DNA of 64,000 bases from Crassaminicella profunda (GTDB lineage: Bacteria; Bacillota; Clostridia; Peptostreptococcales; Thermotaleaceae), in contig NZ_CP082326.1 of NCBI RefSeq assembly GCF_019884785.1, positions 3,031,355 to 3,095,354 of the forward strand. The letters run 5' to 3'. The notes under the pieces were generated by a model. The model ran no database searches and had not been told where the DNA came from. It worked only from the letters and a program-made list of their open reading frames with translations. Each line of letters opens with the position of its first letter. The first letter of the stretch is position 1. A program made the position numbers and the translations under genes. This document shows positions 19,301-37,962 of the stretch, piece after piece.

Positions 19301-22300
19301 TAGAACCTGCATATATATAACCAAAGTCTATATCAGATATAGTTTTCTCTGTTCCACTTAATTTTTCTGTAATAAAGCTATTAGAAAGTGGCTTTTTACG
19401 ATCTGGATCGGATACTAATTCTAACTCTATATCAGATGGTTCAGTTACTGTTATTTCATATTTCTCTAATGGTAAATCTTCAAATGTGTAAGTTCCATTA
19501 GATTTCGTTGTAGTAGTACGTTCTATCGTATACTTACTCGTATCAACATTTTTTAAGGTAATGGTAATATTTGAAAGCTTTTCTTCAGCGCTATCTATGT
19601 TACCATCTTTATCCCCGTCAATCCAAACAGTCCCTGTAACCTTACCTGAATGTTTATATCCAAAATCTACAGTGTCAATAGGTTTAGGTCCTGTTTCTGT
19701 TATACCGTCTGTTGTACCAGTAGATGGAACGATTAATTTTGTTTGATGATCAAGCTTATGATCTGATGCATATGAATTTTCATATACTTCTAATCCATCA
19801 GGATTATTTTCATCTGAATAGATATTTAATGTATTTGTATCTACTTCAATTATATATTCTCCTGATTTCACTTTTTCAAACCAATAATGACCGTCATCAT
19901 CTGTAGTAGCAGTAATATCACTTCCAGAAGTATCTTTTACAGGATTACCATCCTTGTCTTTTAATTTAAGTGTAACGCCTTTGATCCCTTCTTTTGTAGG
20001 AACATCTGTATCGTTAAGTTTCGTTTCTAACCATACATAATCCCCTATTTTACTCAAGGCTTGAACAGAGGCATCATTTTCATCCGTTACATCTTCTAGT
20101 ATCCCTACTAATTTATCCCCATTTTCATCTGAAGGTGTAGCAATAACTTTTGCATTTTTCTTATGAAGGTCACCTGTAACGGTTGTTTGATAGTAGTAGA
20201 TTATAAAATCATCCGTTTCTCCATCTTTATGAGGTTTTAAAGATTTAGTATCCTTATATTCCTCTAATGGCATGATCTCTAATGGACTACCATCAGGTTT
20301 TATGCTGGTATCCGTTATTCTGATTTTATTAGGATCTTTATTACTAAGATAAGTATCCCCTGTATTGCTTACTTTAAAGAAATAGGTAATTTCTTTTCCA
20401 TGGTAATCTTCTGCTAATTCTTTTGCCTTAGATGGATCCGTTACATTCCCTAAAGCTACTGTTTTTTCTATCTTTACAGATGGCTTTATGATCTTAATAT
20501 TTGCTATATCACTAGCTGTAACATCAATAGATGAAACAATCTTCCCATTACGATCTAAAGGATTTGCATGAACCACAGCAGTATTTGTTTCTAAAGCTTC
20601 TCTTACAGTAGTAGCTTTTGTAAGAACTTTAGATTGTCCTTTAGTTAATTTTAAATCTGGGAAATTTTTTGTCATGCTTAATTGATCATCTGTAACAATA
20701 AAATTCGTTAAGGTAATGTCCTCTTCAGCCGTATTGGTTATAGTAAATTGATAAGTAATAGGTTTACCATCTTGTCTATAAACTTTATCAGCAGGAGTAC
20801 CATCACTTGTTAATATTTCTTTCTTAAGTGTTATTACTGGAATGATTTTGTCTACTGTAGCTGAACTTTCAGATTTTGGATAATTTGCTGTATCAATAGT
20901 TTCTATAACATTTCCAGTTGTATCTGTTGGTGTTGCTAAAACATTCGCAGTATTTACTATATCCTCAGAAAGTTTAAAGCTAGGGTCATGATAATAGTAA
21001 ACTAGCTTTTGTCCAGGTGCTAATGGTTTATTTGGATCGTTACTTTTTGAACTTATTAAATTTAGTCCAGATATTGTTTTTATATTAGCTTCTGCTATAC
21101 TTAAAAACTCATCTTTAAACATAATATCATTTAAATAAGTATCTCCTGTGTTCGTTATAGTAAACACATACGTAACAAGATCATCTTTAAGTCCAGTAGC
21201 AAGTGCATGTCCTTCTTCATTCTCTTTATATGCTCCAGTATAAGCTGTCTTCTTTAAAGTGATTTGAGGATTAACTAAATCAACACCTGCTGGATCTTTA
21301 GAATATACTGTACTTCCAAGTGATTCTGTCCCATCAACATCCTTTGAAACTGGATTACCATAAGCATATGCATCTGAAGTAGTTGGACTTAAGTCCTTGG
21401 TTAATGTAGTTTCATAATAAAAAACAAGCTCTTCTGATGTGGCTAACTTCGTCATAGCATCGAAAGTAGGATGGGTATTGCTACTAAGGGCTGCTATATA
21501 TTTTACTTTGTTAGAGTCACTTGGTGTAGCTCTAGTTATCCCTAAAGAATCATCCTTTATTTGGATATTATTTAAGTGTGCATCACTTATATTTTTTACT
21601 ACAAAGATATAAGTGACAACATCATCCTTAAGCCCTTGTACTGAGTTTACATCATTTCTTATAGCGTTATCTGCTTTTGTTTGATCATACGTGCCATGGT
21701 GGACATATTTTTTAAGCTCTATTGCACCATCTCCTACATATGCATGATCCGTAGCTGAAACTGTTTTAGTTTTACTAGAATCTTTGCCTGTAACAATAGC
21801 TGTATTTTTTATAGCACCAGGTAAATCAGTATCCTTAACAGTATAAAGCTGATCAGAAATAGTTTTTGTCTCCCCTGATGAAAGATCTCCTACATTGATA
21901 TCTGCTGTTAGCTTATCATCATTAATAACTACATCCGACAAATCAGCACTACCTATATTTTTAACCTTGAAGGTATATTTGATTTGACTTCCTTCTTTTA
22001 AAGGATTCGTTTTGTTTACTTTTTCACCTGTCTTTTCTAGTGTAATGCCCATAGTATCTACTTCTTTGCTATCCTTTGCTTTTTCCTTTGCTTGAGTAGT
22101 TTTTATGTCTGTATGTGTAGCATTTGCTGTATTTTTAAGTTTTGTTGTTGAAATATCAGATTCTTTTACTATATAAGTATAATCTTTCACCCATGTATCA
22201 CCAGCATTTAAATTTATAGCTTCTGTGAAAATATTTATGCCTTTAATGGAATCTGTCACAGTGATCCCTGTAAGATTTTTGCTTCCTCTATTCTTTACAG

Positions 22301-25300
22301 TAACCTTATAATAAATAACATCTCCAATAGCATAAGGAGCTTTTGACTCTGCATTTTCAATTACAGTTTTATCAAGATCTATATGGGCAATTTCTACATC
22401 TGATGTATCTTGTGTATCAGCATTATCCCCATAACCATCACGTGTAGCATTTACTGTATTAGAGATCTTTTGTGTACTAGCATCTGATATATCATCTACC
22501 TCTTTTACTTCATATTTTGCATAAAATGTCTTTGTTTCACCTTTAACCAATGTTGGAATAGGATTACTCAGCTTATTAGTGCATGCACTATCTGTAAAAA
22601 TATCTAATGTTTTTTCAGTATTTTTACCAGTTGTCAACTTATCTGTAAGCTGAATATTTTTTAGATCCGTACCACCATCATTTGTTAAATTTATCGTATA
22701 TCTTATTGTATCTCCTATATTTACAGTAGAACGATCTGCTATTTTTGTAATGGTAAAGTGTTTAATCTTAACATTACATTGATCAGTTTTTGTAAACCTG
22801 AGCTGATCTTTATCTGGATCTTCAACAGTAGCAGTATTTGTAATAGATTTAGATGATAGATCTTCTGCCTTGATCGTATATTCTTTCGTAACAAACTTAG
22901 ATCCTCCTACTGGAATTTCTGTAATCGTTTCAGTCATATTGATTCTCGGATCTTTTACTGTTATATCTTTTAATGCAATACTACCATTATTAGTCACTGT
23001 CATTTTATATGTGACCTTATCTCCTACTTCTACCTCTGCTAATTTACCATCTGAAGGAGTTATATACGTTCCAGGAGAATCTACCTTTTCAATCTTAGAA
23101 ACTACCTTTTCTAAGCTATAATCAGCTATATCTACTTCTACAGTTGATTCTTTAGCAGCCGTATCACCTGTGGAACCACCATCATTTAATTCATTCGCCC
23201 ACACTTTAACAATATTTTGTAAAGGTCCTGGTAAATCTGTTTCTTTTACTGTATAGGTTCCTTCAAAAACATATTCTTCATTTAACTCTAGTTTATCTAA
23301 TGTTAACTCCGTATCTGAAGATTTAGTAATTCTAACATCCTCCGTGATAGGCTTTGTTGTATCATCAGAATTAACTATGTTCGTAAATCGGAAGCCACTA
23401 AGGATATCTTTTAGCTTGATATTGTGTAGCGGAACTGTTCCCGTATTCTGTAGAACAAATCTATAGGTAATGGTTTCACCTATATTTACAGGTTTTAAAG
23501 GTGCTGTTGGATTGTCAAAGTTAACTTCAGTATTAGAAGATTTATATTTAAACTTATAAGCTTGTTTCTCCAACTTCAAACCTTCTCCATCATCCGTTGC
23601 CGCAACCAATCCTAAATCAATATGATGATTTTTTTCTGTACCTGTTATAGTAACCTCTTTACTCTTTACTACTCGATAGTCTCCTTCTTCTTTAGAAGAT
23701 TCTCCATCAGAATTTAAACGATCATCAGGATCTTTTATAGGAGTTTCTTTGTAGTAATCTTTAGGAAGATAAAATTCAACATAATATGTTCCAGCTTCTA
23801 ATTTAGGGAATAAATAATATCCAGGTGGTCCAATTCCAGGAGCATTCTGGCTATGTCTAGGACCTGTTAAGGTTTCATCCTTTTCAGTCCAATGTCCTCC
23901 TTCTTCTTTAAACAATTTCACCTTAATACCATTAATCCCTGCAGCTTGACCATCATATCCGTCATCTTGGCGTCCATTCTTATCTTTATCAAACCATACG
24001 AAGTTTCCAATCTCACCCTCTGCATGGTGGTCAACTTTTATTCCTACCTTAAAAGGTTCCGCTGGTAAAAATACATCCTCGTCAGTCTCACCAATTCCGC
24101 TTGTACTAATGCTATTCCATGCAATCCCACCATTCATACTTGCAGGATTCGAATCTACAGGAGTTCTCATTCTCCATTTTACTACCAGCTTCTTACCTGG
24201 TTCTAAACCAGTTCCACCATTAATATTCGTTATGTTAAATTTTAACGATTGAACTTTTGTAATATCTTTTGGTGGTGTTTCAGACCAGTCATCGTTACTG
24301 GAAGCTATATCTTCTCCATAAGGTCCTTTACGTTTTGGGTTTGAAAGTTTACTATAAAAAACATTCGTCGTTGCATTTATAGAACTTCCATTATCATATG
24401 TAAAATTACCTTTAGTGATTTGTTCAAGCAAATAAGGCCTCCATGTAGAATCTCTTTTTACATTAGGACGTAGCACTTCTGAATCCCCAATATGAGAAAG
24501 AATATCTATAATTTCAATTTCTTTCATATTAATATTTCCTGTATTCTGAACGATTAGCTTATAGTCAGCAGCACCACCAGGGGTAGTAACAGCAGCATCA
24601 CTTGCATTAGGACTATTTGTATATCCATCTACAGGATCAAGATGACCTCTTACCCACTTTGAAGTAGAAAGACCAGGCATTCTATTTACCTTGATAGAAA
24701 CAGGTTCTGCTACTAAAATAGTATCTACTTTAGAACTATCTCTATCTAAATCTTCCCCATCTATTTTTATGAGGGAAGCTTCAGCTAGAAATTTTCCATT
24801 GCTTGATACATAAAATTCATTGGCATACTTAGTATCATCAGCAGTAGGTTTTGTATAATCTTTGATTTTCACTTTATATTGTAACTTTAAAGTTTCACCT
24901 TTTAAAAGATTATAACTACTCCAGCGCCATATCAATAAAGTTCTATCCCCTATACTATCTTTTGTTAAATCTGGTTTACTTGCAGTGCCCCCCACTACCT
25001 TTTCTGAATTTTCTACAAGCTCGAATCCTTTAGGAAGGATATCTATAAAAATAGGATTTTTAAATGAATCTGTTGCTAACCTAGAATGATTGGTAGCTGA
25101 TAATTCAAATAAAATTTCATCCCCTGGATCATACCCTCTTGTACTTTGAGTAAGATCTTTTTTTTCTAGATTAGAGATCCAAGCAGTTTTTAAATAAACC
25201 AAAAAGCTAATAGCATCTTGAGCTTTCGCTGATGCTTTCTCGCTATCAAATCTTTTGATATATTGATAGTCTAAATACCCATTACTTTGAATAGTTGATC

Positions 25301-27710
25301 GATCTGTTGCTGAATCCTTTATTTTTCCTATTAATCGAATCTTTTTTGATAACTGAAAATCTTTAGGAAGCTTATCATTGAATTCTAGCTTTATACCCGT
25401 AAGTTGTTTACCGTTTGTAAAATCCTTTACGGTTAATGTACTTTCTGTACTCGTATTAAAACTTCCATCATATTTCATCCAGTCACCATCTGTTTTATAC
25501 CAAAACTGAAAGCTTACAGCTGATGAAGATTTTCCTAAAGAAATGCTAGAGTAATCTATGTCAGAAGATAACTCTTGTACCAAAGATGCGTCATATAAAT
25601 CATGTCCATTATTTTTTAAATTATCAATGTCAAGATTATATACTACATCATATCCATGATCAAAATGTTTATAAAGTGAATTGTTTGTATCTTCATTGTA
25701 ATCATCTATTGCCAAGTCCACTTTAGGAGATGGGGGTGATTGACTGATGAATTTAGTAGTTGCTTTATTTGTATTTTCAACAGAAATAGTACCTGTTTTA
25801 AAAGTCAGCAAGCTTCCAATACCACCAAAACCATTTATAATAGGATAACCTGTGGCAGTAACAGTATTTGAAATACTAGCACCCAATAAATTTTTTGCAA
25901 TAGGATATTCTAAAGTAACTTTGATAACAGGTGGATTTTTTGTATCTACATCAGTAAACTGCCAATTTACCCAATGATCACCTTCTGTAATGTTAACTTT
26001 TCCACCATAGCCAGACGGTGTAATTTTTGATGTTTTATATGTTGCATTGTCTGGTAAAACATCTTTTATATTTACTGTTTTTAAATCTACATTATAATTA
26101 CCACTACCATCATAATGACCCGTACTTTTTAGCTTAATGGTATAATCAACAGCTAAAGTATTATTACTTGGATCTGTCTCATCTGGAATCACAACTGCTG
26201 AGGGTGCAGTTTTTTCTAGATACCATTCTTCGTCAGAGTCAATGAATTTAGTAGTAACCTCATCACTAGCTGGATTAAAAGTTACTGAACTATTATCATA
26301 CTTAGACTTTCCTGTTCCAGTAATATGATGAATCCGTGTATCATTATGAGCTACCCCTATACCATTATTTCTTGCAGCTATAGGATATGTCAGTCTAATG
26401 GTTTTAGATAAGGTAACATTTGCATCCACTTCAGGGATTCTCCAAATAAGTTTATTCCCCTCTTTAGTTATACCAGATACGTCAGGAGATAAAATTGTAT
26501 ACGCTTCATCATTCCCAAGAGTATATGTCAGCACTACATCTTTTAGAGGGATATCCCCACCTGTCAAGATAAGATTATACTCTCCATCTACTTCCTTTTT
26601 TCTTAAATCCTTTGTGATGATGATCTCCTTAGGACCAGTAGTCTCTACTTTCCAAACAGCTGTGGATTCTTGAAATGTGACAGTTACAGAATCTGAAGCC
26701 TCTTTAAAAATAATTTCTTCTGAATGCTTCTCTTTTTCTCCACTCCCTTGATTCATTATGATAGGAAAACCTGTTACGGAGATGGTATTCGTGCGTAAAT
26801 CACCTTTCTTTACACCTTGGTCACCACTTTTTCTAAATATTGCATATCTTATTTTGACATCTATAGATGTGGTTTTTCCTGCAGGAACATCCTTTAATGT
26901 CCAGGTAAGATTTTTACCTGAAGAGTCTTTAGAAAATGTAATATTTGAATTATTCGGAGTATGGGATACATATGTTGCATTATCAGGTAATGTATCTTTT
27001 AACTTTACATCCTTTAAATCTATATTCCCATTCTTCAAACTAATTCTATAATTCACATCTATACTTTTTTGATCTGGATTTTTAGAAATTGTAATAGGTA
27101 TAGGATTTCCAGGTGTAGAATGTTTTTCTTCATTCCCAACGACTACATTTTTCGTAACAATCCAACTAGGACCTAGCTTCATAGTAAGATTTAACGTATT
27201 ACTAGATGCAGTTGCTCTTTCTGAATTAGAGACAACTTTCCCTTCAATCTTACCCGCCTTTAATCCAATATTTGTATCATTCGGATATACACTTGGATTA
27301 GGTGCCTGAAAAATAACTTTTACATCTCCAGACTTCCCTGCACTTAAAATATTTCCAGTAAATCCTTCATCCGCTAAATCAAATGTTATTGTACCATCCT
27401 TATGGATTGGAACTCCTTTTACATGAGATGATCGTTGATAGTCTTTGTATATGAAACCTTTAGGAATCGTATAGCTTAATTGAACGTCCTGAAAGGATGC
27501 AACACTACTACCAGAACTATACCTTAATGTAACAGTAACTATATCACCAGGCGCAACCACTGTTTTATCAACAGATTGTGTAATAGAAAGACCATTATCT
27601 CCCTCTGCAAAAGCAATAATATTAAAAAATGGAATAAAAACTTGCATCAGTAGAATAGAAATAGTAAACAAGCTTATATAGTAATGCCTTTTCTTATAGA
27701 GGTACTTCAT
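16332..27710 (-). CDS. Giant LPXTG-anchored surface adhesin with DUF11 and SdrD B-like repeats (3792 aa)
   Basis: The N-terminal signal peptide ends near residue 36 (IIAFA). The ectodomain is built of many DUF11-type conserved repeats. One SdrD B-like domain lies near residue 1232 and five more in tandem between about 2555 and 3140 (GDYVWLE, GTVWIDGDKDG, GDLVWYDLDEDG and so on). Four further DUF11 modules follow from about 3150 to 3600. After a Gly-rich then Pro/Gln/Glu/Asp-rich wall-spanning linker (3600-3674) comes a cadherin-like module. The sorting signal is LPNTG (3762-3766), a hydrophobic stretch and an RKRR tail. The protein should be covalently attached to peptidoglycan by a sortase; one lies just beyond the transglutaminase gene. 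The frame is open along the whole 11.4 kb. The ATG has AGGAGGGA upstream. Ligand unknown. Confidence 0.95.
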   Translation of the reverse strand: MKYLYKKRHYYISLFTISILLMQVFIPFFNIIAFAEGDNGLSITQSVDKTVVAPGDIVTVTLRYSSGSSVASFQDVQLSYTIPKGFIYKDYQRSSHVKGVPIHKDGTITFDLADEGFTGNILSAGKSGDVKVIFQAPNPSVYPNDTNIGLKAGKIEGKVVSNSERATASSNTLNLTMKLGPSWIVTKNVVVGNEEKHSTPGNPIPITISKNPDQKSIDVNYRISLKNGNIDLKDVKLKDTLPDNATYVSHTPNNSNITFSKDSSGKNLTWTLKDVPAGKTTSIDVKIRYAIFRKSGDQGVKKGDLRTNTISVTGFPIIMNQGSGEKEKHSEEIIFKEASDSVTVTFQESTAVWKVETTGPKEIIITKDLRKKEVDGEYNLILTGGDIPLKDVVLTYTLGNDEAYTILSPDVSGITKEGNKLIWRIPEVDANVTLSKTIRLTYPIAARNNGIGVAHNDTRIHHITGTGKSKYDNSSVTFNPASDEVTTKFIDSDEEWYLEKTAPSAVVIPDETDPSNNTLAVDYTIKLKSTGHYDGSGNYNVDLKTVNIKDVLPDNATYKTSKITPSGYGGKVNITEGDHWVNWQFTDVDTKNPPVIKVTLEYPIAKNLLGASISNTVTATGYPIINGFGGIGSLLTFKTGTISVENTNKATTKFISQSPPSPKVDLAIDDYNEDTNNSLYKHFDHGYDVVYNLDIDNLKNNGHDLYDASLVQELSSDIDYSSISLGKSSSAVSFQFWYKTDGDWMKYDGSFNTSTESTLTVKDFTNGKQLTGIKLEFNDKLPKDFQLSKKIRLIGKIKDSATDRSTIQSNGYLDYQYIKRFDSEKASAKAQDAISFLVYLKTAWISNLEKKDLTQSTRGYDPGDEILFELSATNHSRLATDSFKNPIFIDILPKGFELVENSEKVVGGTASKPDLTKDSIGDRTLLIWRWSSYNLLKGETLKLQYKVKIKDYTKPTADDTKYANEFYVSSNGKFLAEASLIKIDGEDLDRDSSKVDTILVAEPVSIKVNRMPGLSTSKWVRGHLDPVDGYTNSPNASDAAVTTPGGAADYKLIVQNTGNINMKEIEIIDILSHIGDSEVLRPNVKRDSTWRPYLLEQITKGNFTYDNGSSINATTNVFYSKLSNPKRKGPYGEDIASSNDDWSETPPKDITKVQSLKFNITNINGGTGLEPGKKLVVKWRMRTPVDSNPASMNGGIAWNSISTSGIGETDEDVFLPAEPFKVGIKVDHHAEGEIGNFVWFDKDKNGRQDDGYDGQAAGINGIKVKLFKEEGGHWTEKDETLTGPRHSQNAPGIGPPGYYLFPKLEAGTYYVEFYLPKDYYKETPIKDPDDRLNSDGESSKEEGDYRVVKSKEVTITGTEKNHHIDLGLVAATDDGEGLKLEKQAYKFKYKSSNTEVNFDNPTAPLKPVNIGETITYRFVLQNTGTVPLHNIKLKDILSGFRFTNIVNSDDTTKPITEDVRITKSSDTELTLDKLELNEEYVFEGTYTVKETDLPGPLQNIVKVWANELNDGGSTGDTAAKESTVEVDIADYSLEKVVSKIEKVDSPGTYITPSDGKLAEVEVGDKVTYKMTVTNNGSIALKDITVKDPRINMTETITEIPVGGSKFVTKEYTIKAEDLSSKSITNTATVEDPDKDQLRFTKTDQCNVKIKHFTITKIADRSTVNIGDTIRYTINLTNDGGTDLKNIQLTDKLTTGKNTEKTLDIFTDSACTNKLSNPIPTLVKGETKTFYAKYEVKEVDDISDASTQKISNTVNATRDGYGDNADTQDTSDVEIAHIDLDKTVIENAESKAPYAIGDVIYYKVTVKNRGSKNLTGITVTDSIKGINIFTEAINLNAGDTWVKDYTYIVKESDISTTKLKNTANATHTDIKTTQAKEKAKDSKEVDTMGITLEKTGEKVNKTNPLKEGSQIKYTFKVKNIGSADLSDVVINDDKLTADINVGDLSSGETKTISDQLYTVKDTDLPGAIKNTAIVTGKDSSKTKTVSATDHAYVGDGAIELKKYVHHGTYDQTKADNAIRNDVNSVQGLKDDVVTYIFVVKNISDAHLNNIQIKDDSLGITRATPSDSNKVKYIAALSSNTHPTFDAMTKLATSEELVFYYETTLTKDLSPTTSDAYAYGNPVSKDVDGTESLGSTVYSKDPAGVDLVNPQITLKKTAYTGAYKENEEGHALATGLKDDLVTYVFTITNTGDTYLNDIMFKDEFLSIAEANIKTISGLNLISSKSNDPNKPLAPGQKLVYYYHDPSFKLSEDIVNTANVLATPTDTTGNVIETIDTANYPKSESSATVDKIIPVITLKKEILTSDGTPADKVYRQDGKPITYQFTITNTAEEDITLTNFIVTDDQLSMTKNFPDLKLTKGQSKVLTKATTVREALETNTAVVHANPLDRNGKIVSSIDVTASDIANIKIIKPSVKIEKTVALGNVTDPSKAKELAEDYHGKEITYFFKVSNTGDTYLSNKDPNKIRITDTSIKPDGSPLEIMPLEEYKDTKSLKPHKDGETDDFIIYYYQTTVTGDLHKKNAKVIATPSDENGDKLVGILEDVTDENDASVQALSKIGDYVWLETKLNDTDVPTKEGIKGVTLKLKDKDGNPVKDTSGSDITATTDDDGHYWFEKVKSGEYIIEVDTNTLNIYSDENNPDGLEVYENSYASDHKLDHQTKLIVPSTGTTDGITETGPKPIDTVDFGYKHSGKVTGTVWIDGDKDGNIDSAEEKLSNITITLKNVDTSKYTIERTTTTKSNGTYTFEDLPLEKYEITVTEPSDIELELVSDPDRKKPLSNSFITEKLSGTEKTISDIDFGYIYAGSIGDLVWYDLDEDGMKDADEEGISGISVTLKNNGTGKSITTVTKDGTAGTTKGMYLFENLPKGNYTVTVTMPADKKLKQVSDPVNNKASDSSYEPKNTYTCDLDKGEKNLKIDFGYNHTGSISGHVLLDSNSNGKKDTDENIFVIGSKVKLIDPLNKITRDPITIDDTGKYSFEKLPAGDYRIEVEAPSYLAPSYNINKNHLDLKLDSDTSVNLMIGEKEVDIDFGYKGTGVIEGVIWQDEENYKVIDTDENLIKGIQVKLMYFDENGKLQVKTTTTKDGGKYAFNELLPREYTVEVDKSDPKLKELLSTYIFKMDLSIIVDKPDITSTVVTLTKEVTSQKEVNFGYRSKIPNLKIEKIANKSEVTIGDPIKYAFTITNTGETVLTNVYLKDDLLDLNTNLGDLTVGEAVYVNEEKYPALKEKLAYKTSQKDVKNPIAGKKNVYKIINKATANSDQTNEVSATYEVTLNTNPALELKKTGPQGTVRIGQEVSYTLLLTNKGDTVLHDVYLEDELLNYSEYIGDLSVGESVYSTPKEIKYTVKQKDAPKLVNIATAKSKETGVVKSNEWRVDVQINPNIKFIKTGPKGAVKVGDEIDYVLTVINTGDTVLQSVYVEDDMLGFDKFFVYDEFDPDHLEKFYPTKYKKYKVTEEDYWRGFITNTAYASFTVSESVYGSVYKSERIPSTWNIGTITANQSFEIEKTVKNRNSINGNMARVGDVLEYTIKVTNTGDVRLDDIHVIDFLIDLDEKVSIEKGKSKTFMGIYIIKKADEKAKKVVNTATASHNQAGTKSDSVETTIKNNNSGSGGSGGGGGGGSTPDTGGDEDKTPDQGGDGGVTPNQPDEPKQPEPEQPNDVEQPDPVDPEQPDQSKNTDMDTPVSGEIEVPEDSIPKIEKEPSHGKVIIDEDGKWKYTPNPDFVGKDTFTIIVTDENGNEEEIIIEIDVDEIPLGNPDIPKGTKTLPNTGESGNVAFYLVGMLFIFIGVILRKRRI

Positions 27711-29796: not shown

Positions 29797-30540
29797 TTAA
29801 AAATCTTTATTATCTTTAAAATCAATAAGTTTACTATCTGTTGTATGATAAATCTTACTATGCTGATCTACGATTAAAAATTTATTTTCCTGCCATTCTC
29901 CATTGACCATCTTTTTTATTAAGTCACAATTATTTTTTCTTTCTTCATAATCCCAATTTCTTTCCTCTGCTAATTCTTTAACCTCTTTGGAAAAATCCTT
30001 ATGCTTTAATTCACTTGAAATATACAAAGCTTTATTGTATCGACTTTTCCATTCATCTGCCATTTGAATTAGATACTTAGCATTTTCCTCTCCATATTTT
30101 TCTACATATTCCTCATAACTGTTATTCATTCCAATACTTTCTAGCTCTTTTCTTTCTTTTTTCAACCCATTTCTATCAATCCATGATTCAATATAATACA
30201 TGGTACCTGTATTTTCCTTAAAATATTTTTCATAAGTTTCTTTTGAACCCATAAATAATGTAATACAATCATGAGCTCTAGGGGCAACAATAGGAATACT
30301 TCTACTTTCTAAATCTTCTAATACATTCCCACATAGTCCAAATCCAAGTAAAATATAATCATATTGATCTTTCACTTTTTCTAATTCATCAATTTTTTGC
30401 TGAAGAATCTTATGCATATCTTTAGGATATTCATGATAATCTGAACTCATCAATTCTATATCTACTACATGTTCAGATAAAGCTGCCCAATAGTAAAATT
30501 CACGTGATAGTACATCACAAATAAATGCTTTTAATCTTAT
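29797..30540 (-). CDS. DUF1638 family protein, apparent AUA start
   Basis: The sequence contains the DUF1638 hallmarks LGFGLCGN near residue 70 and PRAHDCITLFMGSKE near residue 95. An ATG at 30450 or TTG at 30453 lies internal to the family: continuing upstream in frame gives a typical DUF1638 N-terminus (RLKAFICDVLSREFYYWA) with no stop. The first codon six bases after GGAGGG is ATA (30538-30540), and no ATG, GTG or TTG is available at that point. Full length is then about 247 residues. DUF1638 proteins often accompany corrinoid methyltransferases; the biochemical role is unknown. The gene lies 16 nt after the RamA-like gene. Confidence 0.8.
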   Translation of the reverse strand: MRLKAFICDVLSREFYYWAALSEHVVDIELMSSDYHEYPKDMHKILQQKIDELEKVKDQYDYILLGFGLCGNVLEDLESRSIPIVAPRAHDCITLFMGSKETYEKYFKENTGTMYYIESWIDRNGLKKERKELESIGMNNSYEEYVEKYGEENAKYLIQMADEWKSRYNKALYISSELKHKDFSKEVKELAEERNWDYEERKNNCDLIKKMVNGEWQENKFLIVDQHSKIYHTTDSKLIDFKDNKDF

Positions 30541-30556
30541 ATCTATCCCTCCATTT

Positions 30557-32374
30557 CTATTTTAAATACATTCCTTCTAAAAATTCATCTTGGAAATCTG
30601 GATGATTTGAGATTTCAATATGCTTAGTTGTTGAAGAATAAACTTCTGCTTGCTCTTGAATAACAGTTTGATTACAAAGTGCCGTGATAGCCCCTTCTCC
30701 AGCTGCATTTCCTATAGAAATAATTTTATCCATAGACACATTTGGAAATACCCCTATCCTACGTGCACTTTCTTTATTAATAAAGTTTCCAAAAGTTCCA
30801 GCTAACAATATCTTATCAATATCATTTATTTTTACTTTCGCAACTTTAAGTAATATATTTATCCCTCCTCGAATAGCTCCTTTGGCAAGTTGAATTTCTC
30901 GAATATCCTTTTGAGTAATAGCTATATAACCATCTTTTTGGGTCTCATTTTCATAGGCTATGATTACTTCCTTTTGGCTACCATTTTTTATAATTCTTCT
31001 AGCCAATTTTTCATTTTCCAAATCTTCTGTATCTACAATTTTTCCATCTTCTCTAATAATTCCTACTCGTAATAATTCACTCACAATATCAATTAAACCT
31101 GATCCACATATGCCCTTAGCAGGTTTCTGATCAATGGTTGTATAATACAAATCATCTGTAATTTCAACTTGATTGATTGCTCCAGAAAATGCCTGCATGC
31201 CATATTTTATCTTTGCACCTTCGAAAGCTGGTCCTGCTGCCGTTGAACAAGCATAATTTCCTTTTGGGGTTGAAAGAACAATCTCTCCATTTGTTCCTAA
31301 ATCTATCAATAGCTTTATATCCTTGTTATTTATTAAATTTGCTGCAATCATAGCGCCCACTGTATCTGCTCCAACGAATCCTGCTATTCCTGGTAAAAAT
31401 ACAACCTTTCCTTTTGTGTTTATATTTTTTATACCTATTTGTTCTGCATCCTCTATAATTATTTCTTTTGTTACAGCATTAAAGGGTACTCTAGATAGAC
31501 TACTTGCATCTAGCCCTAAAAATAAATGGGTCATAGTCGTATTGGCTACTAACACACACTCATATATATGCCTTTTTTCTATTTTTGTCTTTTCCATCAC
31601 TTTATGAATTAACTCATCAATTCCATGAATGATTCTTTTATTCAATATCTCTAATCCATCTTTATTTTCTAAAGTATAATTGATTCTTGATATTACATCT
31701 GCACCATATCCAACTTGAGGATTTTGCATAGAACTTACCTCTATAGATACCCCTTTTACTAAATCTATCAAATAACATACAACTGTCGTTGTCCCAATAT
31801 CAATAGCTATACCATATATTTGATCACGGGTATCCTCATATTCTATATCAATCAATTCATCCTTATATAAAGTAAATGTAGTATCTTTTGTATAATCTAT
31901 ATGATGGGATAAATACCTCATTATTTTTAGTCCTATATGGACATTTCCTAATTTTTTCTTTATTGCATCTGCCATTGTATATCCATTTTCAAAAGTTGGA
32001 GAATCTAATTGAACTACTTTTTTTACAATATGATTATCTATTGCATATATTCTTTTTGCCCCTAATTTTCCTTTTGATTCATTCGTAAATTGCTCCTCTA
32101 ATATTTCAGCCTCTGCTTGTCCATATAAATATGTTTTACAAGCAAGCCTGATTCCTTTGTAAATCTCTTCCTTCGTCAATATTTTTCTTTCCTCTTTTGT
32201 AATAGGACTGATTTGTCCTTTTATTTTTATCTTACACTTTCCACAGTCACCTTTCCCTCCACAAGGAGCATACACAAGTATACCTTCCTTATTCAAAGCT
32301 TCTAGTACAGTTTCTTCACTATTGATATATACAGCTTTTTTACAATCTTTCAAATCTACAATCATTTTATTCAA
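30557..32374 (-). CDS. ASKHA/ferredoxin corrinoid-activation protein (RamA/DUF4445-like)
   Basis: The 605-residue protein has an N-terminal [2Fe-2S] ferredoxin domain (Cys38, Cys44, Cys47, Cys79). It is followed by a DUF4445/ASKHA ATPase-like region with GIAIDIGTTTVVCYLIDL near residue 207 and LLIDLGTNGEI near residue 350. This is the architecture of reductive activators that return Co(II) corrinoids to Co(I) using ATP. It should reactivate the corrinoid protein encoded 3 kb away. The start is a TTG at 32374, eight bases after GGGGGAG; an ATG three codons later is too far from that site. Confidence 0.9.
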   Translation of the reverse strand: MNKMIVDLKDCKKAVYINSEETVLEALNKEGILVYAPCGGKGDCGKCKIKIKGQISPITKEERKILTKEEIYKGIRLACKTYLYGQAEAEILEEQFTNESKGKLGAKRIYAIDNHIVKKVVQLDSPTFENGYTMADAIKKKLGNVHIGLKIMRYLSHHIDYTKDTTFTLYKDELIDIEYEDTRDQIYGIAIDIGTTTVVCYLIDLVKGVSIEVSSMQNPQVGYGADVISRINYTLENKDGLEILNKRIIHGIDELIHKVMEKTKIEKRHIYECVLVANTTMTHLFLGLDASSLSRVPFNAVTKEIIIEDAEQIGIKNINTKGKVVFLPGIAGFVGADTVGAMIAANLINNKDIKLLIDLGTNGEIVLSTPKGNYACSTAAGPAFEGAKIKYGMQAFSGAINQVEITDDLYYTTIDQKPAKGICGSGLIDIVSELLRVGIIREDGKIVDTEDLENEKLARRIIKNGSQKEVIIAYENETQKDGYIAITQKDIREIQLAKGAIRGGINILLKVAKVKINDIDKILLAGTFGNFINKESARRIGVFPNVSMDKIISIGNAAGEGAITALCNQTVIQEQAEVYSSTTKHIEISNHPDFQDEFLEGMYLK

Positions 32375-32434: not shown

Positions 32435-33352
32435 TTATATAATCTCTATTTTTATTCCAAACTTTTCAAACCAGCTTGCTTTTATTTTCTTTTTTATCAC
32501 ATCTTTATTAGGTCCTAATACTACAAGGAAATTCTCATTCCTCTCCCCATCTATTTTTTTTATATAAATTTGATCTTGAACGGCTTCAATAAAATACCAA
32601 ATATCTTTGATTTTACAAAACCCCTTTACACGATATACCTCTTTTGTCCATTCCTTTAACCAATCCTTTAATTCATCTAGATCAACAGTTTCAAACTTTA
32701 AAATATATTTACTAATTTCTAATGTCTTTTTAATTAAAATCCCTTTCATATCAGGTTTATGCCACTGTAATTTATAGATATTATCAAAATCATCAACTTT
32801 TGAATAAGATGTTTTGATAATATCTGCATGATGATTTAATTCTTTTATCGTTTTTTCTATCTCTTCAATTTCTTCAGTTTTAGCCATATCCACTTTATTG
32901 ATAACGATAAGGTCCGCTCCTTGTACTTGATTCTTGATTGCAACAGCAGTCTCATAGACTTTATAAAAGTTTTTACTGTCCACTACACAAATTGAACCAC
33001 TATAGTGAAACGCTTGTGGCGCTAACTTTTCAAGGATATTCATAATTTTGGGCATTCCAAAGGGATCTGCCAACCCTGAACTTTCTACAATGATATATTC
33101 AACATCTAATTCTCTAGCCTTTATTAAAGCATCTATAAACATATCTGATCTACATACACAAAAGATCGATCCATTATTGATCTCCTCTATAACCATGCCT
33201 TCTTTTTCTAGTAGAGTTCCATCTACCCCTTCTTTTCCAAATTCGTTGACAATAATAGCTGTTTTATTATTTTGAAATCCTTTAATAAGATTTTTCATCA
33301 AGGTTGTCTTACCTGCTCCTAAAAAACCAGTAATTAAATAAATATCAATCAT
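32435..33352 (-). CDS. CobW/G3E-family GTPase
   Basis: The protein is 305 residues from ATG 33352, which has AAAGGAGG eight bases upstream; an upstream in-frame ATG precedes this site. The P-loop GFLGAGKTT is at residues 9-17, SIFCVCRSD near 65, ESSGLADP near 90 and NKVD near 155. The usual metal-binding CxCC of COG0523 proteins is represented only by FCVCR. Such GTPases act as metallochaperones or cofactor-insertion factors. Between a terminator and the RamA-like gene, a role in loading a metal or corrinoid is plausible by context. Confidence 0.88.
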   Translation of the reverse strand: MIDIYLITGFLGAGKTTLMKNLIKGFQNNKTAIIVNEFGKEGVDGTLLEKEGMVIEEINNGSIFCVCRSDMFIDALIKARELDVEYIIVESSGLADPFGMPKIMNILEKLAPQAFHYSGSICVVDSKNFYKVYETAVAIKNQVQGADLIVINKVDMAKTEEIEEIEKTIKELNHHADIIKTSYSKVDDFDNIYKLQWHKPDMKGILIKKTLEISKYILKFETVDLDELKDWLKEWTKEVYRVKGFCKIKDIWYFIEAVQDQIYIKKIDGERNENFLVVLGPNKDVIKKKIKASWFEKFGIKIEII

Positions 33353-33456
33353 CTTAACGCCTCCTTTTAATCCCTTATATCTATCCATTGCGTCAAATTT
33401 AAAATTTTTATCCTCTATGATTAAAATTTACGCCTATGCTTCTAAATATATAGTTG

Positions 33457-33498: not shown

Positions 33499-34863
33499 CT
33501 ATGCAAGTTCTTTTTTTGCTTCTTCGATTTTTGCAAAAAGCTCTTGACGACTTGGAATAATTGATTTATATTCTACTTTTCCATTAATATATATACTTGG
33601 TAGATTTGTAACCCCCATAGCTTTACAACGTGCAATACTTTCTTTTTCTGTATATTTATATTCAATTACATCAATAGCATCTCCAAAATATTCTTTTGCA
33701 TCCATTGCAGCTCCTAACATATAAGTACAAGCTGCACAAGCAACAGAATCTAATGTAAATACTTCAATAAAAGGTTTTTTAAGATTCTTATAATCAGGTA
33801 TTTCAATTTCTATATCTTGCTCTACTGCTGTATAATTCTTTAATATTTCTCTAATTTCTTCCGTTTGACGAACAGCTTGCTGTACAGCAATTGTATTTTC
33901 AATAGGTAAATCATATGGCATATCACACCCTGGTGCTATAATCAATCGCTCATGAGTTAGCTGATCTAAAAGATCTACAACATATTTCATATTATCTTGT
34001 TGAGTTCCGTGAAGCATAACTGTTGTCAATGGAATATTTCCACCAATTACAACATCATATTGATCCGTAACTTCCTTAGCTACTACCATGTCCACATTTT
34101 CATCTACTGAAATAGAATCTGGATTTGTTTTACACATAGGTTCAATATTTTTTGTGGCATCACCACATACAAAGAATGAAGATAATGCCCCATTCTCACG
34201 GATAAAATCAAAAACAACTTTAAATGGTTCATGTAATAATTTTTTAAAATGTCTTGGAGAGATTTGAGATACTAATGGATCAACTACAGCAATCACATCC
34301 ATGCCAGCCTCTATAAAATATTTGCTCATAGCATTTGCAACTTCTGTTGTATAGGCTAATAATTTTTTAGTGTATTCTGGATCTTCAATCATATCCATGA
34401 AAATATTTACCCCTCTTAAGTGAGAAGCCAATGTAAAAGGTCCAGTAATCAATCCATAAAGAGCTGTATCTTCCCCAATTTTTTCTCTTATTTCTCTCAT
34501 AGCTTCCAAAATCATAGGGATTCTTCCATCATTTTCAGAAGGCACCATACAAGTACAAGGTATATCCTTTGTCTCCGCTAAAGGATGAGTTCTTACAGAA
34601 GGAGGATTATTCTCAGCCCATAATAAATCGCACCCTAAAACTTCTGCTTCCATTTGTAAATCAAAGACTACTGGCATGCCATCAGGTTGATATAATTTCT
34701 TTACTTCTAATAATGCCTCCACCAATTTATCTTTATCTTGTAATATTTCCTTTGCCGTATATCCTTTAAGTTTTCCTGCATGAACACCTGCAAATGGAAC
34801 CCATGGTACTTTATCTACTTTTTCTTTTTTTAATAATTTTATAATTCTCTCTTTTCCTGTCAT
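33499..34863 (-). CDS. UroD-family methyltransferase fused to a C-terminal thioredoxin-like domain
   Basis: The protein is 454 residues from ATG 34863 (GAGGAGG five bases upstream). Residues 1-340 resemble corrinoid:coenzyme methyltransferases of the UroD superfamily. Cysteines in FFVCGDA and APGCDMP are possible Zn ligands, but the usual His before the first Cys is absent. Residues about 365-454 form a thioredoxin/glutaredoxin-like fold with Cys376-Ala-Ala-Cys379 and a cis-Pro-type NLPSIYINGK. The fusion is unusual and suggests redox control of the Zn/thiolate site or redox chemistry in the reaction. The gene follows the corrinoid protein by about 50 nt. Substrate unknown. Confidence 0.85.
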   Translation of the reverse strand: MTGKERIIKLLKKEKVDKVPWVPFAGVHAGKLKGYTAKEILQDKDKLVEALLEVKKLYQPDGMPVVFDLQMEAEVLGCDLLWAENNPPSVRTHPLAETKDIPCTCMVPSENDGRIPMILEAMREIREKIGEDTALYGLITGPFTLASHLRGVNIFMDMIEDPEYTKKLLAYTTEVANAMSKYFIEAGMDVIAVVDPLVSQISPRHFKKLLHEPFKVVFDFIRENGALSSFFVCGDATKNIEPMCKTNPDSISVDENVDMVVAKEVTDQYDVVIGGNIPLTTVMLHGTQQDNMKYVVDLLDQLTHERLIIAPGCDMPYDLPIENTIAVQQAVRQTEEIREILKNYTAVEQDIEIEIPDYKNLKKPFIEVFTLDSVACAACTYMLGAAMDAKEYFGDAIDVIEYKYTEKESIARCKAMGVTNLPSIYINGKVEYKSIIPSRQELFAKIEEAKKELA

Positions 34864-34913
34864 AGAGGCCTCCTCTTTCATAACTATTTTTATCTACATT
34901 CCTTTATTATTAT

Positions 34914-35549
34914 TTAAGCAATTAAAACTTCCTTTGCAGCTTCTGCTGCAGTAGCTGCATCAGGAGTATATATGTTTGCTCCTATTTTTTTTGCAAAATC
35001 ATCCGTTACAGGAGCGCCTCCAATCATAACGATATACTGATCTCTAATCCCTCTATTTTCAAGTTCCTTTATAAGTGCTTCCATATTTAACATGGTTGTG
35101 GTTAATAATGCAGACATACAAATAATATTTGCTCCCACTGCTTCTGCTTCATCCACAAACTTTTCTACAGATACATCTACCCCTAAATCAATTACCTCTA
35201 GACCTGCTCCTTTCAACATCATTCCCACAATATTTTTACCAATGTCATGCAAATCTCCTTTCACCGTACCAATAACAACCTTTCCTAAGGATACATTTCC
35301 TATCTTTACAAGAACAGGTTCTAATATGCTCATTCCTGCGTTCATAGCTCTTGCTGCAATCATTACCTCTGGTACAAATATTTCATTTTCTTTAAAGAGT
35401 TTTCCTATCACTTCCATCCCTTTAAGAAGACCTTCTTCTAGTATTATTTTCGGGTCCAACCCTTCATCTAATGCTTGCTGTACTAGTTCTTTTACTTTAG
35501 GAGCCATTCCATCCTCTAAATATTCAGCTATTTGTTTTAAAATCATCAT
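34914..35549 (-). CDS. Corrinoid (B12-binding) methyl carrier protein
   Basis: The 211-residue protein has an N-terminal four-helix MeCbl-binding domain (about 1-85) and a Rossmann-type B12-binding domain. The cobalt-ligating His101 lies in GDLHDIGKNIVG, followed by the SALLTTT loop near residue 145 and GGAPV near residue 185. It belongs to the MtbC/MtgC/MtmC family, small proteins that carry a methyl group on cobalamin between two methyltransferases. It sits between the two UroD-like genes, 12 nt after the upstream one. An AAAAGGAGG site precedes the ATG. Confidence 0.94.
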   Translation of the reverse strand: MMILKQIAEYLEDGMAPKVKELVQQALDEGLDPKIILEEGLLKGMEVIGKLFKENEIFVPEVMIAARAMNAGMSILEPVLVKIGNVSLGKVVIGTVKGDLHDIGKNIVGMMLKGAGLEVIDLGVDVSVEKFVDEAEAVGANIICMSALLTTTMLNMEALIKELENRGIRDQYIVMIGGAPVTDDFAKKIGANIYTPDAATAAEAAKEVLIA

Positions 35550-35561
35550 TGATTCCTCCTT

Positions 35562-36857
35562 TTATATTGATTCAATTTCTTCTCTTGCAATTTCCACCCA
35601 TCTAATTACATTGTTTGGGTTGTTTCCGACCGTATGATTATCCTTCATAATCATTTCTACTATATTATTCTTAGTAATTTTAAGGGCATCTCTAATTTCT
35701 TTTCTTACAACATCCTCATTCATTTTAGTTACTGCTAAAGGAGAGGGAGATGGTTTTAAAGAATAAATATATTGATCTGTCAGTTTTTCAGACATTACTT
35801 CTTTATTAGCCCAAGGCGATACAGAAACTCTTCGTAAATTGGATACAGATTTTACAATATCAAATCTTTTATCCATAGGCTCACAACATCCATAGCAACT
35901 AAGACCAAATCTTTCCATTATTTTTTTCTGATATGGAAAGATAAAGGTTTCAAACATTTTTGGTGAAATCCCTACTGTAATTTGACTTTCTGAAAGCCCC
36001 CACATATTTTTCATCATAACTTGTCCATGAAAATCTTTACCAGGAAGCTCATCTGTAAATCCAATACCACCTGACCCTACATAAGTACCATCATTGTTTA
36101 AACTAAATAGATTATTTTTTTCTAAAAAGTCTAGTTTTTCCATAGTCCCTTTCATCAATAATTCCATTAGCTGGTGTACTTTTTCAGGATAATCATAAAA
36201 ATCAAACATCAATTTATCCATTCCTCGAAGTCTAGCATATTCATCTGTAAGTCCAACAGACCAAAACCATATGGTTTCAAGTCTTACTTCTAAAATGCCA
36301 TCAAAAATTTCATGGGCTATTTCTAATACTTTATTGGTCGTATCATAGTCAATATGAATTTTAGGTTTTGTAATCAAATCTATTTTTTCGTAATCTTCTA
36401 AAATAGTCTCAATAGCATAAGCCCCTCCATCTTGTCTATAAGAATAATTCCCAGCTATTTTACTATTAGCTACATTCCAAGGTTTTTCGGTATATACATG
36501 AGGAACATTAAAATGTGGCTCTACCACATAATCATCCTTCATCTCATTTCCCCAAAAGATTTGTTTTCTAAGATGACATTCCCAATGTCTTGCAATGCTA
36601 TTTTTACATTTGATCTGTTCATCTCTTATAATCTCATTCCAACCGTTTTCTGGATCGCAAAATACAAGTGGTCTTGTATTTTCAAGCTTATTATGCTTTG
36701 TCCAAAGCTTCTTTTTTTCTTCCATAATAGATTTTCCTGCAATTTCTGCTACTTCCTTAGCAAGCTCTCTTAGAATCCTTTTGTCTTCTTCCATAAAATA
36801 AAGATTGGTATAATCTGCTTTATTAAAATTCACTCTCACATTTAAATGTTCAAACAT
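35562..36857 (-). CDS. UroD/MetE-like methyltransferase family protein (probable substrate:corrinoid methyltransferase)
   Basis: The protein is 431 residues from ATG 36857 (GGGAGG seven bases upstream; a frame extending to 36893 crosses the operator). It resembles the uroporphyrinogen decarboxylase / cobalamin-independent methionine synthase superfamily. CYGCCEPMDKR near residue 330 may supply metal ligands. It is the first gene of the unit with the corrinoid protein, so it probably demethylates the primary substrate, by inference. The substrate cannot be read from the sequence; there is no adjacent transporter. Confidence 0.82.
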   Translation of the reverse strand: MFEHLNVRVNFNKADYTNLYFMEEDKRILRELAKEVAEIAGKSIMEEKKKLWTKHNKLENTRPLVFCDPENGWNEIIRDEQIKCKNSIARHWECHLRKQIFWGNEMKDDYVVEPHFNVPHVYTEKPWNVANSKIAGNYSYRQDGGAYAIETILEDYEKIDLITKPKIHIDYDTTNKVLEIAHEIFDGILEVRLETIWFWSVGLTDEYARLRGMDKLMFDFYDYPEKVHQLMELLMKGTMEKLDFLEKNNLFSLNNDGTYVGSGGIGFTDELPGKDFHGQVMMKNMWGLSESQITVGISPKMFETFIFPYQKKIMERFGLSCYGCCEPMDKRFDIVKSVSNLRRVSVSPWANKEVMSEKLTDQYIYSLKPSPSPLAVTKMNEDVVRKEIRDALKITKNNIVEMIMKDNHTVGNNPNNVIRWVEIAREEIESI

Positions 36858-36880
36858 ATGAAAACCTCCCTTTCTCTTTT

Positions 36881-36897
36881 TGCGTGCTCGCACTCGT
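36881..36897 (-). promoter_or_regulatory. LacI-type operator upstream of the methyltransferase unit
   Basis: TGCGTGCTCGCACTCGT is GC-rich against a strongly AT-rich background and matches 14 of 17 positions with the element at 37974-37990. It lies 13 nt upstream of the ribosome binding site of the first methyltransferase gene. Confidence 0.65.
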
Positions 36898-36933: not shown

Positions 36934-37962
36934 CTAATGATCTATATTTTCTTTTGTTTTTATTTCAAGCTTTGTATGAACAACTTCACTTGCTGGTTGT
37001 TGATTTTTAAAATAATAATCAAATAAAATCTTTATAGGCAAATATCCTTGCATAAAGGGTTCTTGGGTTATTGTAAAATCTATTACTTTTTCCTTTAACA
37101 AATCTACCGTTTCAGTAATTTTATCAAAACACACAATTTTTATATCTTTTCTATTCAATTCTTTAAGTGCCTTTCCAACCCCACCTACTCCTATGCCTGT
37201 AATGTAGATAGCCTTTATATGAGGATATTTTTTCATCAAATCCATTGTCTTTTGGTATGAAGATTCATTATCTTTTATATTTTTTATGATATCTATTATT
37301 TTTATACTGGGGTATTCTTCTTTAATGATTTCTTTAAATCCTTCAACTCTTTCCTGTAAAGCTTTTATTTTTTCAATCCCTGTAATTACTGCCACATCTC
37401 CGCCATTAACTAATAACTTTCCAATGAGTTCTCCTGCAATTCGTCCACTTTTTATTAGATTTTGTCCTACAAAACACATTCTTTCTATATCTACTAAATC
37501 CGTATTAAAGGTCATTATTTTTATATTTTTTTGGGTAAGCCTTATTAATTCTTTTTTTATACTTTCTTCATTTAATGGAGATAATGCAAGGGCAGATATA
37601 TTTTGTTCCTCTAATTGTTTAATACATCGTAGTTGTTCATCTACATCTACACTATTCATAAAAATTGTCTCAATCAAAAGGCCAAAGTCTTTTAATTCCT
37701 CATAAGCTTTTTGTATACCTTCATAGACTTCATTGAAAAATGGATCCTCTTTACTTAATATAATTACCCCTATTTTTAAAGGATTTTTTTGATAGGCCAA
37801 TGCTTTTCCAGCTAAATTGGGTTTATATCCCAAATCCTGTGCTATTTTTCTTACCTTTTCTCTAACAGGTTGACTTACCCCTGGTCTATTGTTCAAAACC
37901 TTATCTACTGTTCCTCTTGAAACCTTTGCAGCTTCTGCTATTGATTTTATAGTTACTCTCAT
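36934..37962 (-). CDS. LacI-family transcriptional regulator
   Basis: The 342-residue protein has an N-terminal LacI helix-turn-helix (residues 3-25, VTIKSIAEAAKVSRGTVDKVL) and hinge (ALAYQ near 55), followed by a periplasmic-binding-protein-like sensor with an RbsR-like flavour. It is immediately upstream of the corrinoid methyltransferase unit in the same orientation. Two GC-rich near-identical sites flank the gene's two ends, indicating autoregulation and control of the downstream unit. The sensor type points to a small sugar or polyol-like effector, but this is inference. The ATG has AAGGAG upstream. Confidence 0.92.
   Translation of the reverse strand: MRVTIKSIAEAAKVSRGTVDKVLNNRPGVSQPVREKVRKIAQDLGYKPNLAGKALAYQKNPLKIGVIILSKEDPFFNEVYEGIQKAYEELKDFGLLIETIFMNSVDVDEQLRCIKQLEEQNISALALSPLNEESIKKELIRLTQKNIKIMTFNTDLVDIERMCFVGQNLIKSGRIAGELIGKLLVNGGDVAVITGIEKIKALQERVEGFKEIIKEEYPSIKIIDIIKNIKDNESSYQKTMDLMKKYPHIKAIYITGIGVGGVGKALKELNRKDIKIVCFDKITETVDLLKEKVIDFTITQEPFMQGYLPIKILFDYYFKNQQPASEVVHTKLEIKTKENIDH

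Follow-up and report, generated by a model that had tools for sequence, protein, structure and literature searches.

A locus of Crassaminicella profunda raises the question of how a methyl group leaves a corrinoid protein when the candidate enzyme for that step, a UroD-type methyltransferase, carries a fused thioredoxin domain and lacks a zinc-ligand histidine. Here we analyzed a 64,000-nucleotide stretch of this genome (the window; assembly GCF_019884785.1, contig NZ_CP082326.1, positions 3,031,355 to 3,095,354), in which the fusion, a protein of 460 amino acids (aa), is encoded at 33499..34881 on the minus strand, in a gene run with a corrinoid carrier and a 431-aa protein. On balance we lean toward reading the locus as a complete corrinoid methyl-transfer system, with the fusion as its second methyltransferase (MT2), having a Cys/Cys site (Cys/selenocysteine, Sec, in some relatives) and a dedicated thioredoxin partner. 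We found no description of a UroD-thioredoxin fusion in the titles, abstract openings or passages of the literature searched, with most subscription journals outside its reach.

Residues 9-339 of the fusion match Pfam URO-D (194.3 bits, E 3.8e-57). The C-terminus, from about residue 366 to 460 (33502..33786, minus strand), is a thioredoxin domain, with residues 372-454 matching the thioredoxin chain 1nho (E 1.6e-5); no Pfam thioredoxin family matched at E 0.001. The CAAC motif that an initial annotation, made from the sequence of the window, had placed in a fused thioredoxin domain was confirmed as C382 and C385 (codons 33736-33738 and 33727-33729). The structure model (predicted local distance difference test, pLDDT, 92.4) has a UroD fold, aligning to 4ay8 with Z 42.4 and a root-mean-square deviation (rmsd) of 1.9 over 331 residues, and the nearest fold to the UroD part is the methylcobalamin:coenzyme M (CoM) methyltransferase 4ay7/4ay8 (Z 42, 26% identity). 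Scores against curated families all fall short: 167.2 bits for the MtaA/CmuA family TIGR01463 (cut-off 235.4), 151.3 and 143 bits for the MtaA/MtbA CoM methyltransferase equivalogs NF040654 and NF041608 (cut-offs 400 and 600), and 68.6 bits for HemE, TIGR01464 (cut-off 302.95). An ordinary CoM enzyme was therefore rejected on both these cut-offs and the zinc ligands described below. CoM is not expected in bacteria.

An artefactual or chimeric open reading frame (ORF) was also rejected, because the fusion recurs in other genomes. The initial annotation had proposed such a search and held that absence from relatives would undo the idea. Among 59 relatives, the window genome included, 21 had some match and the full fusion was covered in five (G000, G001, G015, G006 and G034; 62 to 100% identity), and the remaining matches extend little past the UroD part. 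A search of 398 genomes of the phylum at E 1e-60 returned 20 matches, which by coverage are 13 fused (one with an in-frame TGA) and 7 unfused. A scan of named genomes gave at least 501 relatives, the best 80 of which were kept; among the matches listed are Eubacterium callanderi, Acetobacterium wieringae, Emergencia timonensis, Sinanaerobacter chloroacetimidivorans and Eisenbergiella tayi, along with several Spirochaetes, one Synergistaceae metagenome-assembled genome (MAG) and one Anaerolineaceae MAG. This distribution supports an old and conserved fusion, with the zinc-ligand His absent from the whole clade.

The H-I-C-G motif of MtbA-type 4ay7 aligns with F237-V-C239-G in the fusion, and C319 is kept in a PGC motif. 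The ligand set is then Phe, Cys, Cys instead of His-Cys-Cys, with two of three ligands retained, and the missing His that had been remarked on in the initial annotation corresponds to F237. The loss is closely paired with thioredoxin. Among the 107 Phe-type proteins, a fused thioredoxin domain is present in 97; the 10 that look unfused comprise seven with a thioredoxin ORF no more than 400 nt away on the same strand, one (locus L041) whose fused gene is interrupted by its own TGA, and two (L053 and L065) for which no thioredoxin was found. A fused or neighboring thioredoxin thus accompanies 105 of 107 Phe-type proteins versus 0 of 32 His-type proteins (one of the latter lying at a locus edge), as detected by a model of the fused domain that an unlike thioredoxin would escape. 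This count sets aside eight UroD rows with neither F nor H motif, all of them unfused and none with a thioredoxin neighbor. It is this pairing, the strongest hint in our data, that suggests the thioredoxin acts on the altered site.

As the two groups were sorted by the F/H motif, the F237 column is not independent evidence, which comes instead from the thioredoxin pairing, the tree split and other columns. The tree has 99 rows, and a branch supported at 100/100 sets the Phe-type proteins apart from the rest. Within the tree, a small unfused group (three members with TGA, one with Cys) separates from a 59-row group that is nearly all fused (100/98), TGA arises in at least three places, and some His-type rows sit on very long branches. 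Two further columns follow the split: His34 is present in 105/107 Phe-type versus 1/35 His-type rows, and His154 in 107/107 versus 5/37. His34 and His154 could be relocated zinc ligands. Separately, three deep members of the fusion family (L078, L079 and L080) have CPPC in place of CAAC; CobW is adjacent, no corrinoid gene is present in the locus, and their genomes have no PF00809 match.

In seven genes (L041, L050, L051, L054, L055, L056 and L060), an in-frame TGA falls exactly at the Cys319 column. Each gene has no second TGA ahead of its next TAA or TAG, the surrounding context is APG-U-D-M/L-P, and the coding sequence continues past the TGA. In close pairs of these genes the differences after the TGA are mostly at third codon positions (for L054 against L056, one, two and seven at first, second and third positions), and a SelB domain is found in all seven genomes. 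The codon therefore seems to be read as selenocysteine in these seven relatives, though not in the window protein, which has Cys. Two observations weigh against this reading. SelB is also present in five of eight Cys-only genomes (G425, G260 and G074 lack it), and folding of the 52 nt that would hold a selenocysteine insertion sequence (SECIS) element gives overlapping values for TGA genes (z -2.9 to 1.3, n=7) and Cys genes (z -2.8 to 1.5, n=12). None of the NCBIfam selenoprotein models fits the UroD part of the three members tested. In the passages searched of a review from 2026 that covers the prokaryotic selenoproteome (PMC13188914), no family appears under UroD, MtaA or uroporphyrinogen, and other surveys may already contain one. 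Two more matches to a "PGU" pattern (L087 and L179) were dropped, as the family motif is absent. At L050, L051 and L081, L082, the TGA-type genes of genomes G334 and G310 are flanked by several small thioredoxin-like ORFs, one after another.

Together, the pairing of His loss with thioredoxin and the exchange of Cys for TGA favor a redox- or thiol/selenol-linked chemistry unlike that of MtaA and MtbA, as the initial annotation had suspected. With those enzymes (TIGR01463, NF040654, NF041608; 4ay7, 4ay8) the fusion shares the UroD fold, two of three zinc ligands and a setting with a corrinoid carrier and an activase. It differs in scoring under all three curated cut-offs, in the Phe that replaces the zinc His, in the fused thioredoxin, in the predicted Sec of some members and, here, in being bacterial. 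A closer comparison is with the Mlp proteins of type 1 mlp gene clusters, MtaA-like bacterial UroD proteins found beside a corrinoid protein and activase, for which sulfur or selenium methyl chemistry has been proposed (PMC10418091). In that work His-Cys-Cys is taken as the mark of such chemistry, and an Mlp2 was shown to transfer the methyl group of methylcobalamin to selenide. Mlp proteins keep His-Cys-Cys with few exceptions, whereas the fusion has F237, and the passages of that paper available name no thioredoxin fusion. A type 1 cluster has at least one Mlp2 and one Mlp3, whereas the window operon has a single protein above the Pfam URO-D cut-off, a comparison made by description rather than against Mlp2 and Mlp3 sequences. 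By analogy, loss of His with two soft ligands kept and a thioredoxin added would go a step further toward sulfur or selenium methyl chemistry. The fusion may thus be a variant of the corrinoid MT2, with possibly new chemistry.

We next consider the genes that accompany the fusion, counted within 5 kb for 92 fusion loci out of 96 examined. CobW is present in 70/92 (in 59 of them no more than 400 nt away), RACo in 44/92 and a corrinoid protein in 51/92; one or more of these three are found in 87/92. A TAG-split methylamine methyltransferase or PylS occurs in 10/92 loci, where the fusion occupies the place that MtbA has in pyrrolysine methylamine systems (MtmB, MtbB, MttB with MtbA); the window differs from these systems in having no Pyl gene and no TAG methyltransferase. 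Read through the TAG, the six genes tested score far above Pfam cut-offs (MtbB of L026, L027 and L166; MttB of L158 and L166; MtmB of L157), and PylB, PylC and PylD of L027 and PylS of L166 exceed NCBIfam cut-offs. A candidate MtmB gene in L128 was rejected as a fragment of only 142 aa. MtmB homologs without an in-frame TAG lie directly beside the fusion in L071, L075 and L077, and beside its split form in L084; that of L071 has Met at the Pyl202 position. These resemble MtqB, a pyrrolysine-free MtmB homolog whose action on tetramethylammonium and choline was demonstrated in 2026 (PMC13044021), although MtqB pairs with the archaeal MtbA-type MtqA and the window uses another first, substrate-specific methyltransferase (MT1). 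Because several methyltransferases share one fusion, it would serve them as an MT2 does. Since its place in pyrrolysine methylamine operons lay outside the view of the initial annotation, what had seemed one odd system looks instead like a shared MT2 module.

Near several of these loci other genes recur. Purine genes neighbor the fusion or its split form in L076, L077, L084 and also L066. An 8-oxoguanine deaminase scores above its cut-off near the fusion or its split form in L076 and L084, XdhA does so in L076, and L066 has FAD subunit genes of the XdhA kind near the fusion or split form; L077 and L084 also hold the MtmB homolog that lacks pyrrolysine. The loci L076, L077, L084 and L066 may serve to N-demethylate methylated purines. 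In L152, L155, L164, L172 and L174 (Acetobacterium, Eubacterium and a Firmicutes MAG), two genes that by eye are ketopantoate reductase-like and ketopantoate hydroxymethyltransferase-like turn up repeatedly next to genes for the fusion, a corrinoid protein, a transporter and an MttB-like protein.

If the fusion is an MT2, the methyl group must go somewhere, and we looked for known destinations in 30 fusion genomes. CdhC of acetyl-CoA synthase exceeds its cut-off in only 3/30, one of them at 24.1 bits against a cut-off of 24, and a Wood-Ljungdahl fate was therefore rejected as a general rule. MtrH-size pterin proteins, judged by lengths and bits, are missing in 21/30, the window genome included; of its two pterin matches, one is a dihydropteroate synthase (TIGR01496, 317.7 bits) and the other an 808-aa protein taken as MetH. 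Genomes with a pyrrolysine locus and no MtrH-size pterin protein are G006, G034, G455, G456 and G463, and no MtrH-type gene lies within 5 kb in the ten pyrrolysine loci (nine were counted, and adding L027 left the overall total of 4 unchanged). With CdhC and MtrH-size proteins mostly missing, the fusion is the best MT2 candidate in these genomes, MetH being another possible one.

Several findings count against an MT2 role. A corrinoid gene is absent within 5 kb in 41/92 fusion loci, 71/91 have none of the MttB, MtbB, MtmB or 431-aa MT1 families within that distance, and the Phe-type proteins of L053 and L065 have no thioredoxin that we could find (L065 adjoins a fused copy). MtrH-size pterin proteins are present in 9/30 fusion genomes, and most of the 30 have a MetH-like protein that could pass the methyl group to tetrahydrofolate. 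The fusion might then serve corrinoid systems as a redox or repair enzyme that depends on thioredoxin, rather than as a turnover methyltransferase, with MetH-like or MtrH-like proteins removing the methyl group; a route through the MetH family has been proposed for deltaproteobacteria without MtbA (PMC8318568), and selenocysteine together with thioredoxin is typical of redox enzymes (PMC13188914). Against this, the UroD domain retains a methyltransferase fold and two of three zinc ligands, and RACo already covers reductive activation in the 44 loci that have it. We regard such a repair role as quite unlikely.

A different alternative keeps the fusion as an MT2 and makes tetrahydrofolate the acceptor, methylated in a MetE-like barrel, with thioredoxin merely protecting or regulating the enzyme and Cys/Sec tuning it without new chemistry. 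MetE belongs to the same superfamily and binds methyl-tetrahydrofolate, and its structures 1xpg, 1xr2 and 4l64 align to the fusion at Z of about 21. In bacteria of the Eubacterium limosum type, the acceptor of such systems is tetrahydrofolate, via MtqA (PMC12155760). However, the bacterial corrinoid:tetrahydrofolate enzymes named in the literature passages searched are pterin-binding and not of UroD type, and the fusion genomes G074, G346 and G449 have zero matches to PF00809, though other folate synthesis or import is possible there. The thioredoxin pairing also appears too strict for a mere shield. This alternative seems to us improbable, if slightly less so than a repair role.

For the favored system, in which the fusion is the MT2, we propose the following cycle. 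The 431-aa protein, as MT1, would take a methyl group off an organic substrate and pass it to the Co(I) of the corrinoid protein, and the fusion would remove it at the Cys239/Cys319 (or Sec) site that lacks His. The thioredoxin domain may keep the Cys/Sec pair or an acceptor thiol reduced, or offer its own thiol. Corrinoid that had drifted into the Co(II) state would be re-reduced by RACo, and metal might come from CobW. As acceptor, we rank a small thiol or sulfide first and tetrahydrofolate second. A bolder extension, which we offer tentatively and consider doubtful, is a class of corrinoid methyltransferases with a Cys-Cys or Cys-Sec active site that uses its own thioredoxin at each turnover, moving the methyl group to a thiol or selenol, perhaps through methylated Cys/Sec and disulfide or selenenylsulfide chemistry. 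Such a class could be the main methyl disposal route, from methylated amines and O-methyl sugars or inositols, of non-acetogenic bacteria, including gut bacteria that use pyrrolysine. If the Cys/Sec site and thioredoxin do act together, the mechanism would be without precedent for corrinoid methyltransferases in the literature passages searched. Bacteria with pyrrolysine methyltransferases and no acetogenic pathway must hand the methyl group on, and the enzyme is left open in the passages of the literature that we searched. The fusion is the obvious candidate at the loci from Emergencia timonensis, Sinanaerobacter and Anaerovorax, and its presence there makes the question of the methyl-removing enzyme directly testable.

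The window locus itself is a run of seven genes from 37962 to 29797, all on the minus strand, with intergenic gaps of 12 to 110 nt. In order, these encode a LacI-type regulator with a Peripla_BP_4 sensor domain (36934..37962; Pfam LacI 51.7 bits, Peripla_BP_4 168.9 bits), the 431-aa protein (35562..36857), the corrinoid carrier (34914..35549; B12-binding 92.2 bits, B12-binding_2 80.4 bits), the fusion, a CobW-family GTPase (32435..33388; cobW 134.3 bits, CobW_C 32.3 bits), a RACo-type reductive activase with an N-terminal 2Fe-2S domain (30557..32374; RACo_C_ter 258.3 bits, Raco_middle 185.8 bits, Fer2 31.5 bits) and a DUF1638 protein (29797..30453; 131.7 bits). The LacI, corrinoid, CobW and RACo matches all exceed Pfam cut-offs, and the ORFs lie where the initial annotation had placed them, although it omitted the two ends of the run, the LacI and DUF1638 genes. 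Against TIGR02370 the corrinoid protein scores 201.7 bits, under the cut-off of 215.3. The same seven genes occur in identical order in a Marinisporobacter MAG (L101), DUF1638 included, and six of them (LacI, 431-aa, corrinoid, fusion, RACo and CobW) in Firmicutes bacterium HGW-Firmicutes-7 (L115); because the order recurs in this way, the locus is more than a chance arrangement. In the region 29797-30520, the DUF1638 gene has no ATG, GTG or TTG where a relative in G001 has its ATG start, and the frame is open upstream.

The 431-aa protein probably supplies the substrate-specific subunit, judging by its modeled fold. Its ORF (35562-36893) opens at GTG 36893, with ATG 36857 as the likely start. 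It had been called UroD/MetE-like, and the UroD fold holds up in the model (pLDDT 86.7), which aligns to uroporphyrinogen decarboxylase 1r3s with Z 19.4 and rmsd 3.9 over 290 residues and matches a UroD fold in Foldseek (E 1.6e-5); by sequence, it reaches 17.1 bits against the Pfam URO-D cut-off of 23.9, and 7/10 relatives match weakly (best E 0.0016). No Pfam or NCBIfam cut-off was reached. A YGCCE motif (residues 322-326) and Lys368 are invariant in 10/10 aligned rows. With these features the protein is a natural candidate for MT1, contrary to the initial annotation, which saw no recognizable substrate-specific subunit in the locus. The UroD-superfamily O-demethylases and the chloromethane enzyme CdmB likewise use a UroD fold as substrate-specific MT1 (PMC13222342); the 431-aa family differs in falling under the Pfam URO-D cut-off and in its own YGCCE motif, and the Cdm system has an MtrH-type MT2. 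The family is sparse, occurring in 2/59 relatives and 12/398 genomes of the phylum (six near full length), and no close relative was confirmed in viral contigs.

The substrate is best approached through the neighbors of this family, counted in nine loci (the window, L115, L135 and L181 to L186; the near copy L101 was left out). Glycosidase, solute-transport or inositol genes lie near 6/9: GHL6 in L182, GH116 in L183, an alpha-amylase in L185, GH43 in L135, SBP_bac_1 in L181, and IolC and IolG, both above cut-off, in L115. IolC also exceeds its cut-off in the three tested genomes that have the 431-aa gene (G000, G001 and G465) but does not do so in G002 and G003, two genomes without that gene. 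Because of these neighbors and this co-occurrence, our guess, held with little confidence, is a methylated inositol or sugar, and the family could point to how methyl ethers of sugars or inositol are demethylated anaerobically. Speaking against it, no sugar gene lies beside the window operon. Genes of the kinds listed were not shown near L184 and L186 either, and G015 has IolC without the 431-aa gene. It is about equally conceivable, and again doubtful, that the substrate is a methylated amine, methoxyaromatic or haloalkane and the 431-aa protein an MT1 of that kind. Elsewhere the fusion accompanies amine methyltransferases, and known UroD-superfamily MT1s include aromatic O-demethylases and haloalkane enzymes (PMC10418091, PMC13222342). 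Yet none of the seven window operon proteins matches MTTB, MtmB or Dimeth_Pyl, so that MttB, MtbB and MtmB are lacking, the LacI sensor is of sugar type, and the sugar-type neighbors above point elsewhere. Pyrrolysine in the window's own system was rejected, as the 431-aa gene ends in TAA and genome G000 has no PylS above cut-off.

No tRNAs were found in the window or in four loci. Elsewhere in the window (14602-15324 and 16332-27710) are, judged by eye, a sortase-like gene and, near it, a gene for a 3792-aa repetitive surface-type protein with an LPNTG-like C-terminal signal.

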